Shown piece after piece: positions 2,506 to 9,788 of a stretch of 64,000 nt of DNA; the stretch's first letter is position 1; every line of letters begins with the position of its first letter. The DNA is taken from assembly GCA_913063155.1 (NCBI GenBank), contig CAJXYU010000003.1, positions 434,001-498,000 of the forward strand. The letters are read 5' to 3'. The stretch comes from an uncultured Desulfovibrio sp. GTDB taxonomy: Bacteria > Desulfobacterota > Desulfovibrionia > Desulfovibrionales > Desulfovibrionaceae. The notes below the pieces were generated by a model, which had not been told where the DNA came from, did not search any database, and saw only the letters and a program-made list of their open reading frames with translations. The translations under genes and the position numbers were made by a program.

Positions 2506-4386
2506 ATGGAGATACATTCCCGGAAAGACAACGAACAGGGCCCGATGGTCGCCCTTGTCCTGGCTCTCATCGTGCTCGGCGTGGGAAGCCTTTTCCTGAC
2601 CTGGAAAAGCATCGCCCGCCAGCGCGCCCTGGTGGAGAACAACCTGTTCCTTTCCGGCGGGTCCATTGTTCGGGGCGTGGAATCCAACCTCATGCGCATC
2701 GTACGCAGTATGGCCGGAAACCGCGCGGTGCTTCCCATGTTTCCCACCCTGGCCCGCGACCTTTTCGAGGAATTGGCCCAATCCGACGACTTTCTGTTCA
2801 TTGCCATCTACGACGAAAAAGGCGGGGTGCTGGTCACCTCCGAAAAAGAAGGCAAGACCCCCAAGATAGATTTCAGCAACACGCACGAAACCGTGCTCAA
2901 CTCGGGCCAGACCTGGCATTTCATGAGCACGATAGAGAAACGTGAAATCCTGGTTTCCGGCCTGCGCCTGCGCCCGGCCATCTCCGCGTTGCTGGCCCCG
3001 GAAGAACAGACGCTTTCCCCGGCGGAAAAACCATCCGGAGAACAGTCCAACCAGACGGAGAGCACACGGCAGAAGCCGGGAAACAAGGACCAGGAAGCCC
3101 CGGACAACAGCCGCATGCAGCACGGTCGGAATATGGGTCAAAACACCTCCATGCGGAACATGCGCAACAAGACTTATCTGGTCATCGGACTCAACGCGGA
3201 CCGCCACCTGGCCCAGTTCAAGCAGTACCGCCGCGCGGCCATGCTCCAAACCGGCTACGTGTTCCTTGCCGCGGTAGTACTCTGGTCCCTGACCTTTGCC
3301 TACCTGCGCAGGCGCGACCAGGGAAAGAGGCTGGTTCGCCTGGAGCAGTTCCAGAATCGCTTGCTGGACCACATGCCGGACGGCCTGGTCAACCTGGACA
3401 AGGATGGCCAGATCCTGGCGGCAAACGGCTCGGCAAAGAAACTGCTCGCCTCTCCGAACGAGGATAGCCCACAGGAGCTGGTGGGCCGTTTTTGGGAGGA
3501 CTTCCCGTTCGGCAGCCCGGCCGCGGACATCCGCACCGCCGACTTCGGCTGGCAGCAACACGACTACCACGGCCGGCAGTTGGAAATCCTTTCCGTGCCC
3601 TTTCCCGAGGGAGACGACACAGCTCCGGAACTGGGCCTGCGTCTCGTTCTCATCCGCGACCGCACCCGCATCCGCAGCCTGGAAGAAGACCTGAACGAAG
3701 CGCGTCGGCTGGCCGCCATCGGCTCGCTGGCGGCAGGTGTGGCCCACGAGGTGCGCAACCCGCTCAGCTCCCTACGGGGATTCGCCCAGTTCTTCGCCAC
3801 CAAACTCAAGGGGCAGGAACCGTTCGAATCCTACGCCACCACCATGGTGCAGGAATCCGACCGCCTCAACCGCGTGGTCACTGATCTGCTCTACCTGGCA
3901 CGTCCACGGGAACTTGCTCCCCAGGAAGTAGAGCTCAAAGAGGTGGGAGACACCCTCACCAAGCTCATGCGTTTCGACATGCAGCACCGCAAGGTGGAGC
4001 CGCTGTTCGATTTCGAAGCCCCGGAGGTCTGGGCCGATCCGGACGCACTGCGCCAAGTGCTCCTGAATCTCATCGCCAACAGTCTGGACGCCCTGAGCGA
4101 AGACCAGGACGGCGGAGGAACCCTGGAAATTCTGTCGCGCATCGACACGGGCGGCATCTGGGTTTCCGTACACGACAACGGCGTGGGCATGGACGAGGCG
4201 ACCAAGGCCCAAGCCCTGGAACCGTTCTTCACCGGCAAAACCACAGGCACAGGCCTGGGGCTGGCTATCGTGCACAACATCATGCGGGCCCACAAAGGGC
4301 AGGTATACATCGACTCCGACCCCGGGCAAGGAACGACCATCAGACTTTTTTTCCCAAACCCTGCTGAATCCGAAAAACAGGCGTAA
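2506..4386 (+). CDS. Two-component sensor histidine kinase (ZraS-like, periplasmic sensor + PAS + HisKA + HATPase)
   Basis: H-box AAGVAHEVRNPLSSLRGFAQFF; DNGVGMDEATKAQALEPFFTGKTTGTGLGLAIVHNI. Confidence 0.9.
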   Translation: MEIHSRKDNEQGPMVALVLALIVLGVGSLFLTWKSIARQRALVENNLFLSGGSIVRGVESNLMRIVRSMAGNRAVLPMFPTLARDLFEELAQSDDFLFIAIYDEKGGVLVTSEKEGKTPKIDFSNTHETVLNSGQTWHFMSTIEKREILVSGLRLRPAISALLAPEEQTLSPAEKPSGEQSNQTESTRQKPGNKDQEAPDNSRMQHGRNMGQNTSMRNMRNKTYLVIGLNADRHLAQFKQYRRAAMLQTGYVFLAAVVLWSLTFAYLRRRDQGKRLVRLEQFQNRLLDHMPDGLVNLDKDGQILAANGSAKKLLASPNEDSPQELVGRFWEDFPFGSPAADIRTADFGWQQHDYHGRQLEILSVPFPEGDDTAPELGLRLVLIRDRTRIRSLEEDLNEARRLAAIGSLAAGVAHEVRNPLSSLRGFAQFFATKLKGQEPFESYATTMVQESDRLNRVVTDLLYLARPRELAPQEVELKEVGDTLTKLMRFDMQHRKVEPLFDFEAPEVWADPDALRQVLLNLIANSLDALSEDQDGGGTLEILSRIDTGGIWVSVHDNGVGMDEATKAQALEPFFTGKTTGTGLGLAIVHNIMRAHKGQVYIDSDPGQGTTIRLFFPNPAESEKQA

Positions 4387-4391
4387 GCGAC

Positions 4392-5795
4392 ATGACGGAC
4401 AAAACTATTCTCATTGTTGACGACGAACCCGGCCATCGCATGATGGTCCGGGCCGTGCTGGAAGACACGGACTGGCGTGTCCTGGAAGCAGACTCAGGCG
4501 AAAACGCGCTGGAACTGCTGGCCCAGGAATCCATGGAAACGGACAACGGTCATCCAGCCACGCCGGACGTGGCTTTGGTGGACATGAAAATGCCGGGCAT
4601 GGACGGTCTGGAACTGCTGCGCGAGCTGCAGTCCCGCAGACCGGGACTGCCCGTGGTGCTACTCACGGCTTTCGGCAGCGTGGGCTCGGCGGTGGACGCC
4701 ATGAAGAAAGGCGCGTTCGACTACCTGACCAAGCCGGCGGACAACGAAGAACTCAAGGCAGTGGTCGGCAAGGCCCGGGAATACCGTCTGCTGCTGTTGG
4801 AAAACGCCCGGCTGCGCGAGGAAGTGGACGGTGGACACGTGGAGTTCATCGGCGCAAGCCCGGGCGTACAGCATGTGCGCGACCTCATCAATCAGGCCGG
4901 CCCCTCCGAAGCCACGGTGCTCATCCTCGGGGAGTCCGGCACAGGCAAGGAATTGGTCGCTGAAGGCCTGCACCGGGCCAGCAACCGAGCCGACCGGCCG
5001 CTCATCAAGGTCAACTGCGCGGCCCTGCCCGACGACCTCCTGGAATCCGAACTCTTCGGTTACGAAAAAGGAGCCTTCACAGGAGCCATCAAAGACAAGC
5101 CGGGCCGCTTTCAGCTGGCAAACGGCGGCACCCTATTTCTGGACGAAATCGGAGAAATGCCCGGAGCGCTCCAGGCCAAACTCCTGCGTGCGCTGCAGGA
5201 AAAGATCGTGGAACCGCTGGGCAGCGTTAAGCCGGTACACACGGACGTGCGCATCATCGCCGCCACAAACCGGGATCTGAAAAAGGAAGTGGAGGCCGGT
5301 CGCTTCCGTGAAGACCTCTTCTACCGCCTGGCCGTGCTGGAAATAAAGATTCCGCCTCTGCGCAGCCGCCGCGAGGACTTGCCTCTGCTGGTCAGCTTTC
5401 TGCTACGCAAGCTGGGCAACAAGAACAACAAGGCCATCCGCACCGTGACTCCGGCCTTTCTGGACGCCCTGTCCCACTACGACTGGCCCGGCAACGTGCG
5501 CGAACTGGAGAACGTGTTGGAGAGAGCACTGATCCTGTCGCGATCGGACGCCCTGAGCCCGGAACTGCTGCCGCCCCAATTCCACGGAGTGGACCCGGAT
5601 TACCAAACCGCTGTGGAGGAGCACGGCATCGCCGCCTACAGCCCGGCCTCACTGGAGGAGGCCGAAAAAATGGCCATTATCCGGGCGCTGGAAGAAAACG
5701 GTGGACACCGCGAACGCACGGCCGAAGCGCTGGGCATCAGCCGGCGCACCCTGCAATACAAACTCAAGAAATTCGGGCTGACCAGACGGCAGTAA
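4392..5795 (+). CDS. Sigma54-dependent response regulator, NtrC/ZraR family (REC-AAA+-Fis HTH)
   Basis: ILIVDDEPGHR; GESGTGKELVAEGLHRAS; ELFGYEKGAFTGA (GAFTGA sigma54-contact loop); C-terminal RTAEALGISRRTLQYKLKKFG. Confidence 0.95.
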   Translation: MTDKTILIVDDEPGHRMMVRAVLEDTDWRVLEADSGENALELLAQESMETDNGHPATPDVALVDMKMPGMDGLELLRELQSRRPGLPVVLLTAFGSVGSAVDAMKKGAFDYLTKPADNEELKAVVGKAREYRLLLLENARLREEVDGGHVEFIGASPGVQHVRDLINQAGPSEATVLILGESGTGKELVAEGLHRASNRADRPLIKVNCAALPDDLLESELFGYEKGAFTGAIKDKPGRFQLANGGTLFLDEIGEMPGALQAKLLRALQEKIVEPLGSVKPVHTDVRIIAATNRDLKKEVEAGRFREDLFYRLAVLEIKIPPLRSRREDLPLLVSFLLRKLGNKNNKAIRTVTPAFLDALSHYDWPGNVRELENVLERALILSRSDALSPELLPPQFHGVDPDYQTAVEEHGIAAYSPASLEEAEKMAIIRALEENGGHRERTAEALGISRRTLQYKLKKFGLTRRQ

Positions 5796-7026: not shown

Positions 7027-7150
7027 CGAACCGCTGAAAAACGCACGTATGCCATGTTGCTGCAAAAGGCTCAAATCCTCGCGTACCGTAAAAGTACGCT
7101 GCGCCCTTGAACATTTTGGGGCATTGCCTTCACGCTTTTTGAGCGGCTTC
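7027..7150 (-). repeat. Dispersed ~120-bp imperfect-palindromic repeat, copy A (inverted relative to B-D)
   Basis: Ends GAACCGCTGAAAAACGC / GCTTTTTGAGCGGCTTC; core reads ...GGTACGCGAGGATTTGAGCCTTTTGCAGCAAC... on minus strand. Confidence 0.6.
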
Positions 7151-7450: not shown

Positions 7451-7484
7451 AGCAAACGAACAACAGTATACATCCATATTTCAA

Positions 7485-7605
7485 GGCTGATCAAAAAGGT
7501 TCGAGTGCAGGGCGCGAGAAAAGATCGATCCGGTACATGCTCTTTCGGTACGTGAGGATCTGAGCTTTTCGTCGAAACGCGGCAATCGGGCCTTTTTCAG
7601 CAGCC
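7485..7605 (+). repeat. Dispersed palindromic repeat, copy B
   Basis: GGCTGATCAAAAAGGTTCGAGTGCAGGGCGCGAG...GGTACGTGAGGATCTGAGC...GGGCCTTTTTCAGCAGCC; near-perfect terminal inverted repeats. Confidence 0.7.
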
Positions 7606-7619
7606 GGCAGGAGAATTCT

Positions 7620-9026
7620 ATGTCCAAGACCGTATCCCGCTTCGCTCCCAGCCCGACCGGCTTCCTTCACATCGGCGGCGCACGCACCGCGCTGTTCGCC
7701 TGGCTGTTGGCCAGAAGCGAGGGCGGCGAATTCGTGTTGCGCATCGAAGACACCGACCGCGAGCGCAGCACCAAGGAAGCCATCGACGCCATCATAGACG
7801 CCATGTCCTGGCTCGGCCTGGAGCACGATGGCGAGATCGTCTTCCAGAGCAAGAACGCGGACCGTCACAATCAGGTCATCGATCAGCTCATCGAGTCCGG
7901 CCACGCCTACTACTGCGACTGTTCCAAGGAAAAGGTCGACGCCATGCGCGAGTCGGCCATGAAGGAAGGCCGCAAGCCCAAGTACGACGGCACCTGCCGC
8001 GAAAGAAACCTGGGACCGGGTGAAGACCGCGTGGTGCGCCTCAAGGCCCCCCAGAGCGGCAGCACCGGATTCAGGGACATGGTCAAGGGCCCCATTTCCG
8101 TGGAGAACAGCGAGCTGGATGACATGATCCTGCGCCGTTCGGACGGCACCCCCACCTATAACCTGGCCGTAGTGGTGGACGACCACGACATGGGCGTGAC
8201 CAGGGTCCTGCGCGGCGACGACCACGTGAACAATACCCCGCGCCAGATCCTCATCTACAACGCCATGAACTGGGACGTGCCCGAATTCGGCCACGTGCCC
8301 ATGATCCTGGGGCCGGACAAGAAAAAACTTTCCAAGCGCCACGGAGCTCTCTCGGTCATGGAATACGAGAAGATGGGCTACCTGCCCGAGGCGGTGATCA
8401 ACTACCTGGCGCGTCTGGGCTGGTCCCACGGCGACCAGGAACTGTTCACCCGCGAGGAACTCATCAAATACTTCAACCCCGAAGGCCTGGGCAACTCCCC
8501 GTCCGTTTTCGACCTGACCAAGTTTGAGTGGGTCAACAGCCAGTACATGCAGCAGGCCGATCCCGAGCGTATCGCCGACCTGGTCATGGACTTCCTGGCC
8601 CGCGAGGTGGGCGAGGAGGAAGCCGCCAAGGTGGACCGCGAGTACGTGGTCAAGGTGGTCCCCCTGCTCCAACCGCGCGCCAAGTCCATTGTGGACATGC
8701 TTGAACAGTCCCGCGTCTTCCTGGTGGACGTCAGCCACCTGCACTACGAGGAAAAGGCCGTGAAGAAGTTCCTGACTTCGGAAGCCAAGGCCATGCTTGA
8801 AGAGCTGCTGGTGCGTTTCGAGGCCGAAGAAAAACTGACCCACGACAGCGTGGAAGCGATCCTCAAGGGTTACGTGACCGAGAAGGGCCTCAAGTTCAAG
8901 GACGTCGGCCAGCCGGTCCGCACCGCGGTCTCCGGCGGCGCTCCCAGCCCGGGCCTCTACGACATGCTGCCCGTGCTCGGCAAGGCGCAGACCGTGGCCC
9001 GCATCAAGAGAGCGATTGAATTGTAA
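7620..9026 (+). CDS. gltX: Glutamyl-tRNA synthetase
   Basis: RFAPSPTGFLHIGGARTALFAWLLAR; KLSKRHGALSV (KMSKS variant). Confidence 0.97.
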   Translation: MSKTVSRFAPSPTGFLHIGGARTALFAWLLARSEGGEFVLRIEDTDRERSTKEAIDAIIDAMSWLGLEHDGEIVFQSKNADRHNQVIDQLIESGHAYYCDCSKEKVDAMRESAMKEGRKPKYDGTCRERNLGPGEDRVVRLKAPQSGSTGFRDMVKGPISVENSELDDMILRRSDGTPTYNLAVVVDDHDMGVTRVLRGDDHVNNTPRQILIYNAMNWDVPEFGHVPMILGPDKKKLSKRHGALSVMEYEKMGYLPEAVINYLARLGWSHGDQELFTREELIKYFNPEGLGNSPSVFDLTKFEWVNSQYMQQADPERIADLVMDFLAREVGEEEAAKVDREYVVKVVPLLQPRAKSIVDMLEQSRVFLVDVSHLHYEEKAVKKFLTSEAKAMLEELLVRFEAEEKLTHDSVEAILKGYVTEKGLKFKDVGQPVRTAVSGGAPSPGLYDMLPVLGKAQTVARIKRAIEL

Positions 9027-9129: not shown

Positions 9130-9246
9130 CTCTCAAGAAAGGCTCAAGTGCAAGGGGCCAGAAACATTCGGGCCAGACGTATACAATGAAGTACACGAAG
9201 GCTCGTTTTTTTGCAGCGACACGACAATTTACCGTTACCGTCACCC
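9130..9246 (+). repeat. Dispersed palindromic repeat, copy C (degenerate)
   Basis: CTCAAGAAAGGCTCAAGTGCAAGGGGCCAG...GTACACGAAGGCTCGTTTTTTTGCAGCGACACGACAATTTACCG. Confidence 0.5.
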
Positions 9247-9248
9247 AC

Positions 9249-9273
9249 AAAAAGGCCCTCGATTGAGGGCCTT
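9249..9273 (-). terminator. Intrinsic terminator of the candidate sRNA
   Basis: Minus-strand AAGGCCCTC-AATC-GAGGGCCTTTTTG. Confidence 0.85.
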
Positions 9274-9350
9274 GAGAGGAAGGAGAGGTGTCTACTGATG
9301 CTGTCTTGCGTTTTTCATGGAGACTTCACGAAAATCTCCGTGCAGACCAA
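9249..9350 (-). ncRNA. Candidate sigma54-dependent small regulatory RNA
   Basis: -24/-12 promoter at 9356-9375 (minus), GGAGATTTTCGTGAAGTCTCC hairpin (9319-9339), CU-rich linker (9275-9290), terminator AAGGCCCTCAATCGAGGGCCTTTTTG (9249-9273). Confidence 0.7.
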
Positions 9351-9355
9351 TCCTT

Positions 9356-9375
9356 GGAAAGCATCAGCCATGCCA
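9356..9375 (-). promoter_or_regulatory. Sigma54 promoter of candidate sRNA
   Basis: TGGCATGGCTGATGCTTTCC; 16 of 18 positions identical to 930-947 (TGGCACGGCTAATGCTTT). Confidence 0.7.
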
Positions 9376-9440
9376 CCGCTGCACATCCTTGAAGAATCAA
9401 CAGGTTACGTGAATTCCATTTCACCCGAAGAGAATTTTCG

Positions 9441-9498
9441 TGCAGCAATTCGCCCACTTTTTGCGCAGATTGCACATTTCATTGTGCAGACAAGTGCA
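9441..9498 (-). promoter_or_regulatory. Candidate UAS for the sRNA promoter
   Basis: TGCACA-N6-TGTGCA palindrome (9471-9488), TGCGCA (9462-9467), AGTGCA (9493-9498), TGCAGC (9441-9446), matching motifs in zraP upstream region. Confidence 0.55.
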
Positions 9499-9511
9499 GG
9501 CATGGTACACA

Positions 9512-9542
9512 AAAAAAGCCGCCGGAAACCCGACGGCTTTTC
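9512..9542 (-). terminator. Intrinsic terminator of rpmB
   Basis: Minus strand AAAAGCCGTCGGGTTTCCGGCGGCTTTTTTT. Confidence 0.9.
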
Positions 9543-9575: not shown

Positions 9576-9788
9576 CTATTCGGCCTTGGCCTTGGCTACA
9601 GGCTTGACCACGGCGCCGTTGCGGATGCAGCGGGTGCAGGCCTTGATGGTGGTAACCTGACCGGAAGGCAGCTGATGGCGCACCTTCTGCAGGTTGGGCA
9701 TGAAGCGACGGCGGGTCTTGATATGAGAGTGGGACACGTTATTACCCGTGGCCGGACCTTTACCGCATATATCGCAAACTTGGGACAT
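9576..9788 (-). CDS. rpmB: 50S ribosomal protein L28
   Basis: [38 protein letters not shown]; start refined to 9788 behind GAGGAGGT-like SD. Confidence 0.96.

Follow-up and report, generated by a model that had tools for sequence, protein, structure and literature searches.

A candidate sigma54-dependent small RNA that shares regulatory signals with a ZraPSR-like operon and appears to derive from a small membrane protein mRNA in Pseudodesulfovibrio

The DNA considered here is a stretch of 64,000 nucleotides, which we call the window. Within it, a short transcription unit lies on the minus strand between two conserved neighbours. These are rpmB, upstream, encoding ribosomal protein L28 (positions 9579 to 9788, minus strand), and gltX, which is convergent (7620 to 9026, plus strand). 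The unit has a sigma54 promoter of the -24/-12 type, TGGCATGGCTGATGCTTT (9358 to 9375, minus strand), with a predicted transcription start near 9349. Further upstream, between 9440 and 9498, is a cluster of activator half-sites (GTGCA at 9440, TGCGCA at 9462, TGCACA at 9471, TGTGCA at 9483, and GTGCA at 9494). This cluster is predicted to be the enhancer for a ZraR-type regulator. The expected product is a small RNA of about 102 nt (9248 to 9349, minus strand), in which some 75 nt separate the start from the hairpin of an intrinsic terminator. The original prediction, made from the letters of the window, had described a perfect 9-bp hairpin with a U tract and about 100 nt devoid of a plausible ORF. 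Both descriptions were correct: the stem (9252 to 9273, minus strand) has 9 perfect pairs, a 4-nt loop, and a U tract downstream, and no candidate frame in the transcript runs beyond 8 codons, the longest lacking a Shine-Dalgarno sequence. The predicted fold is more stable than those of shuffled sequences (z = -3.1). No Rfam model matched the RNA above threshold, so by this search it has no homology to a described family. Note that rpmB has its own terminator, between rpmB and the RNA (9515 to 9540, minus strand). The RNA is therefore not simply rpmB read-through. The DNA adjoining the small RNA terminator (9150 to 9240) resembles intergenic stretches at 7040 to 7150 and 7480 to 7600. All contain GGCTC/GGTTC, GTAC..GTAC dyads, and TTTTTGCAGC; a counterpart also follows the small RNA in the related genome G010. 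These stretches look like a dispersed intergenic repeat.

Nearby, on the plus strand, is an operon encoding a ZraP-like periplasmic protein (1004 to 1513; Pfam Metal_resist, PF13801), a DUF4405 membrane protein (1678 to 2502), a ZraS-like histidine kinase (2506 to 4386; HisKA/HATPase_c), and a ZraR-like response regulator (4392 to 5795). The last of these has Response_reg, Sigma54_activat (AAA+, with GAFTGA), and HTH_8 (Fis-type HTH) domains, and is the predicted activator. Hence, by Pfam, all three parts of a ZraPSR system are present: a ZraP-like protein, a sensor kinase, and a sigma54 response regulator. We take DVU3384-3381 of D. vulgaris to be the counterpart of this operon, from the gene order. 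The zraP-like gene has a sigma54 promoter, TGGCACGGCTAATGCTTT (930 to 947), that is identical to the promoter of the small RNA at 16 of 18 positions, as had been claimed. The claim that TGCACA/TGTGCA clusters precede both promoters also held; the same hexamers occur between 818 and 890, starting at 818, 838, 850, 862, and 885.

We searched 36 Pseudodesulfovibrio genomes, several of which are drafts, for the unit. BLASTN with the whole 291-bp region found only one real match in the genus, in G010. Taken alone, this would suggest no conservation. After this result, we used rpmB as an anchor and scanned downstream for the promoter, which showed otherwise. A -24/-12 site was present directly downstream of rpmB at 21 of the first 30 loci scanned, in every case with TGCACA or TGTGCA upstream. 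Beyond those 30, genome G012 has the same promoter and upstream sites after rpmB. Most of the other genomes have an unrelated gene after rpmB, with the unit and its promoter further downstream. Such insertions were seen in G013, G015, G020, G022, G027, G031, G033, G008/G009, and G032; they encode a solute-binding-like protein, a sensor-like protein, and others, and the unit is undisturbed. The gene order rpmB - unit - gltX - nifU - HDOD - zraR - zraS - DUF4405 - zraP is found throughout the genus, apart from local insertions and a few losses. The original prediction had staked itself, in advance, on the promoter, upstream sites, and terminator being conserved in relatives, and they are.

The same promoter, in most relatives, precedes an ORF that has a ribosome-binding site and encodes a protein of about 93 amino acids. 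This protein has a C-terminal SHOCT domain (PF09851) and one hydrophobic segment, which probably spans the membrane. Differences between the ORFs, by codon position, are 0.36/0.26/0.52, and this pattern indicates a real gene. The coding form is also present in the outgroup genus, where one of two copies has a strong sigma54 site. Hence, the proposal of a small RNA gene stands for the window, which carries a form with no ORF, and fails for most relatives, in which the unit is the mRNA of a SHOCT membrane protein. In G007, rpmB and the SHOCT unit occur twice, 8.4 kb apart (C1:4036013-4036814 and C1:4044410-4045210), and one of the two SHOCT copies is frameshifted. A remote SHOCT paralogue in the window genome (C1:431371) was considered as the relocated gene of the unit. 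It was rejected, having neither a sigma54 promoter nor TGCACA sites.

The SHOCT ORF is absent from the locus in six genomes: the window genome (G000), G010, G017, G028, G002, and G012. All six retain the promoter, the activator sites, a CU-rich run described below, and the terminator. In a midpoint-rooted tree of GltX and ZraR, these genomes form two clades. Clade A contains the window genome, G010, G017, and G028 (support 100/99). The second contains G002 and G012 (support 97/91) and has the coding genome G001 as its sister. The 3'UTR of the coding form in G001 is kept almost letter for letter in G002 and G012. Since the neighbouring genus carries the coding form, the simplest history is one in which the ORF was lost twice. 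Loss in two separate lineages is, on these comparisons, well supported. By descent, then, the RNA would derive from the 3' end of an mRNA, with no parental ORF left in the window genome. One further genome, G016 (C1:1696762-1697038), has a SHOCT ORF broken by a stop codon (TAG) and a frameshift, with the promoter and 3' element intact. This is a possible intermediate in ORF loss.

The part of the RNA that has changed least is at the 3' end. The sister genome G010 matches the window without a difference over a stretch of about 33 nt, GCAAGACAGCATCAGTAGACACCTCTCCTTCCTC (9276 to 9309, minus strand); over the preceding 40 nt, the two agree at 55% of positions. At the terminator-proximal end is a CU-rich element, CACCUCUCCUUCCUCUC (9274 to 9290, minus strand), which is the predicted seed. 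Its 9-nt core has a mean predicted unpaired probability of 0.87. The 3' tail of 16S rRNA is CACCUCCUUU, and the CU run resembles it, so has the look of an anti-Shine-Dalgarno sequence. In coding relatives, a CU-rich run CACCUCYCC (CACCTCCCC-type), typically ACACCTCCCC or CCTCCTCTCC, follows shortly after the stop codon and precedes the terminator. Such runs were found in 25 of 28 coding-type 3'UTRs and in all six RNAs without an ORF. No clear CU run was found in the coding-type genomes G021, G026, and G034, or in either outgroup genome. Within clade A, all four genomes share the 12-mer CACCTCTCCTTC without change, and the body of the RNA has drifted. The relatives have no 5' fold in common, and no helix apart from that of the terminator. 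The CU run is predicted to be mostly unpaired in four of the six ORF-less RNAs, and only 33-42% unpaired in G017 and G028. We also considered whether the run could be a Shine-Dalgarno sequence for the other strand. An ATG does follow on that strand in some coding-type genomes, and not in G001, G003, or G017; the U tract sits on the strand of the small RNA. This possibility was rejected.

Logically, a CU run retained where the ORF has gone cannot act only in cis on that ORF. Selection on the RNA itself would be the simplest reading of its retention. An alternative is that the RNA is a functionless relic, with a promoter that still fires and a transcript that has been decaying since the ORF was lost. 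The rapid divergence of the 5' body, noted above, is what such decay would produce. Similarly, exact and near-exact complements of the seed (GAAGGAGAGGTG), in the four clade A genomes, showed no clear excess over a reversed control, and most matches were inside genes, away from start codons. We consequently propose no target. Against decay, six species, from two separate clades, have preserved the promoter, upstream sites, CU motif, and terminator amid diverging intervening sequence. Furthermore, the 3' element is present in coding relatives and so is older than ORF loss. We consider a relic unlikely, if the least so of the alternatives.

The CU run might instead be a cis element of the mRNA, rather than a seed that acts in trans. 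It could pair with the Shine-Dalgarno sequence of SHOCT itself, or contribute to termination or stability. Indeed, the run in coding-type units could pair with GGAGG/GAGGTG of the same mRNA, and it always adjoins the terminator. However, the run persists in RNAs with no ORF or Shine-Dalgarno sequence to control. Nor does it generally accompany terminators: in a like-for-like scan of terminator-like hairpins, it occurred at 12 of the 14 detected from the units and at only 14 of 335 others (4%) in the same loci. A role in cis alone therefore strikes us as improbable, and we favour selection on the RNA as a molecule acting on other transcripts.

We turn now to regulation. TGCACA/TGTGCA hexamers are enriched, compared to dinucleotide shuffles, in the promoters of 29 coding-type units (71 occurrences versus 7.4 expected), of the six ORF-less units (16 versus 1.6), and of 34 zraP genes (114 versus 16). 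The commonest hexamer upstream of the unit, and of zraP alike, is TGCACA, at several-fold over shuffles. In the 4.3-Mb window genome, the shared promoter sequence, in a search pattern derived from these same two promoters, occurs with fewer than 3 mismatches only at zraP and the rpmB-gltX unit. A genome scan of the kind proposed by the original prediction, with promoter and upstream sites together in a gapped pattern (TGCACR-N50..80-TGGCAYN6TGCW), yielded three matches, compared to none for a reversed control. The three are zraP, the rpmB-gltX RNA, and a third RNA-like locus. Orthologues of ZraR, 77-96% identical, are encoded beside zraP and zraS in the genus. Because of the shared enhancer hexamer, the linkage, and this conservation, we infer that the ZraR-like protein activates both zraP and the RNA. 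Co-regulation of the unit with the ZraPSR-like operon, as first suggested, is well supported at the level of sequence, with the hexamer common to every zraP promoter examined in the genus and a conserved zraR nearby.

A different enhancer-binding protein might, in principle, activate the unit. Regulators of this kind are numerous in this group of bacteria, with 37 in D. vulgaris (PMC4641369), and the spacing of hexamers differs between the unit (-102/-67/-59) and zraP (-92/-81/-69). Yet the top hexamer is the same in both promoter sets, the linkage is conserved and, besides the third locus, no further promoter in the genome has the pattern. The D. vulgaris ZraR homologue, DVU3381, is reported to control zraP-like DVU3384 and its own operon, DVU3382-3381, and is filed under envelope stress (PMC4641369). 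Activation by some other protein is thus decidedly improbable, and the neighbouring ZraR homologue is our preferred candidate. Finally, it is very improbable that the transcript encodes an unrecognized tiny peptide: the window genome and G010 do share a frame ending ARQHQ-stop inside the identical stretch, but its starts differ (ATG and GTG) and lack a Shine-Dalgarno sequence, the frame is absent from G017, G028, G002, and G012, and identity of the stretch extends to every codon position and past the stop, which points to the RNA instead.

At the third match (G000:C1:517,806-517,882), a hexamer cluster of the same kind and a sigma54 promoter precede a predicted transcript of about 300 nt; the unit is placed at L195:1368-1740 (G000:C1 from about 517,867). 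Counterparts with the same layout were retrieved from 21 further genomes of the genus, G010 among them. In most species, the 3' part has several ACCUCC-type (ACCTCC) runs before the terminator, and a frame of 60-90 codons has its ATG at the predicted transcription start, so might be leaderless. The frame is weakly coding (differences by codon position of 0.27/0.31/0.34). There is a conserved CGGACGCC..GGCGTCCG hairpin; Pfam gave no match, and Rfam none that was convincing. Many of these promoters also contain, after the hexamers and ahead of the -24 element, a palindrome resembling GTTGMNCATGCAAC (TGTTGAACATGCAAC), where a second regulator might bind. The locus appears to supply the regulon with a second RNA.

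Our preferred explanation, to which we assign a probability of about 0.62, is as follows. The ZraR-like regulator, encoded 4 kb away, would bind the enhancer and activate transcription of a roughly 100-nt RNA from the sigma54 promoter. This RNA appears to descend from the mRNA of a SHOCT small membrane protein, the ORF having been lost and the promoter, enhancer, CU element, and terminator kept. Since the CU run outlives the ORF, it is most naturally read as a site that pairs, in trans, with Shine-Dalgarno sequences; the unpaired element would, most likely, mask ribosome-binding sites of other mRNAs. Pairing would then lower translation of these targets during envelope or metal stress, the presumed inducing signal. 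We found no Hfq gene in 21 genomes of the order, including the window genome, in searches where controls were positive. Hence, the mechanism would be Hfq-independent, and resemble that of anti-Shine-Dalgarno small RNAs such as NfeR1. The evidence carrying this explanation was read from DNA: the promoter, the identity of the enhancer with that of zraP, conservation, ORF absence in two clades, and retention of the CU run. A wider picture, possible rather than probable, is that the ZraR regulon of Hfq-less Pseudodesulfovibrio has a post-transcriptional arm of two sigma54-driven RNAs with anti-Shine-Dalgarno runs. One would be the rpmB-gltX RNA, a dual-purpose mRNA that became a pure small RNA, by ORF loss, in two lineages. 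The other would be the genus-wide RNA of the third locus. Together, they might damp translation of membrane or other proteins in envelope stress. In either case, a ZraPSR-type metal or envelope response would gain a candidate RNA branch, in a group of sulfate reducers that yielded no Hfq gene.

Qrr, GlmY, and CrcZ are products of small RNA genes activated, via sigma54, by NtrC-type regulators. The unit has the features of this class: -24/-12 elements with conserved GG and GC, upstream sites in common with 34 zraP promoters, and, as predicted from sequence, a short ORF-less transcript with an intrinsic terminator. Regulators, sequences, and mechanisms differ, and the known examples are linked to Hfq, RapZ, or Crc. 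Closer in phylogeny are the sigma54-dependent ncRNAs of D. vulgaris Hildenborough, from the same broad group, which are listed as targets of DVU0653, DVU0679, DVU1419, and DVU2359 (PMC4641369, PMC3333781). There, as here, a sigma54 promoter and regulator sites precede the ncRNA, and DVU1419 is placed under envelope stress (PMC4641369). The class is therefore not new. In contrast, PMC4641369 lists no ncRNA for DVU3381, the ZraR homologue. The consulted parts of both reports give the ncRNA functions as unknown and do not describe a history from mRNA to small RNA (PMC4641369, PMC3333781). The open-access literature searched held no description of an RNA for a ZraR-type regulator. Hence, the original suggestion of an undescribed RNA output stands for this type of regulator and, given the ncRNAs reported in D. 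vulgaris (PMC4641369), not for the bacterial group.

In its probable mode of action, the RNA is like NfeR1, of the Sinorhizobium alpha-r14 family, an anti-Shine-Dalgarno small RNA that acts without Hfq (PMC10746234). Both combine variable bodies with a conserved CCUCC-type seed, which in the RNA here is predicted to be unpaired, although only weakly so in G017 and G028. In NfeR1, there are three hairpins with CCUCCUCCC; LsrB activates the RNA and NtrC represses it (PMC10746234). The unit here has one run, before the terminator, and a sigma54 promoter; we saw no homology between the two.

By origin, the nearest parallels are CpxQ, from the 3'UTR of cpxP, an envelope-stress protein mRNA (PMC9438474), and GlnZ, from the 3'UTR of the sigma54/NtrC-driven glnA mRNA (PMC9731577). 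In each case, a stress or starvation mRNA has a regulatory 3'UTR. RNase E releases CpxQ and GlnZ, and both use Hfq, whereas here no Hfq was found and, in two clades, the ORF is lost and the RNA would be its own transcript. The RNA belongs to neither family. Neither a change from coding to non-coding in two lineages nor the conserved anti-Shine-Dalgarno-like 3' element was found described in the open-access literature searched. The locus offers a traceable series, from an intact mRNA with a candidate regulatory 3'UTR, through the broken ORF of G016, to two separate ORF-free forms. Such a series would illustrate how a small RNA gene can arise from a protein gene.
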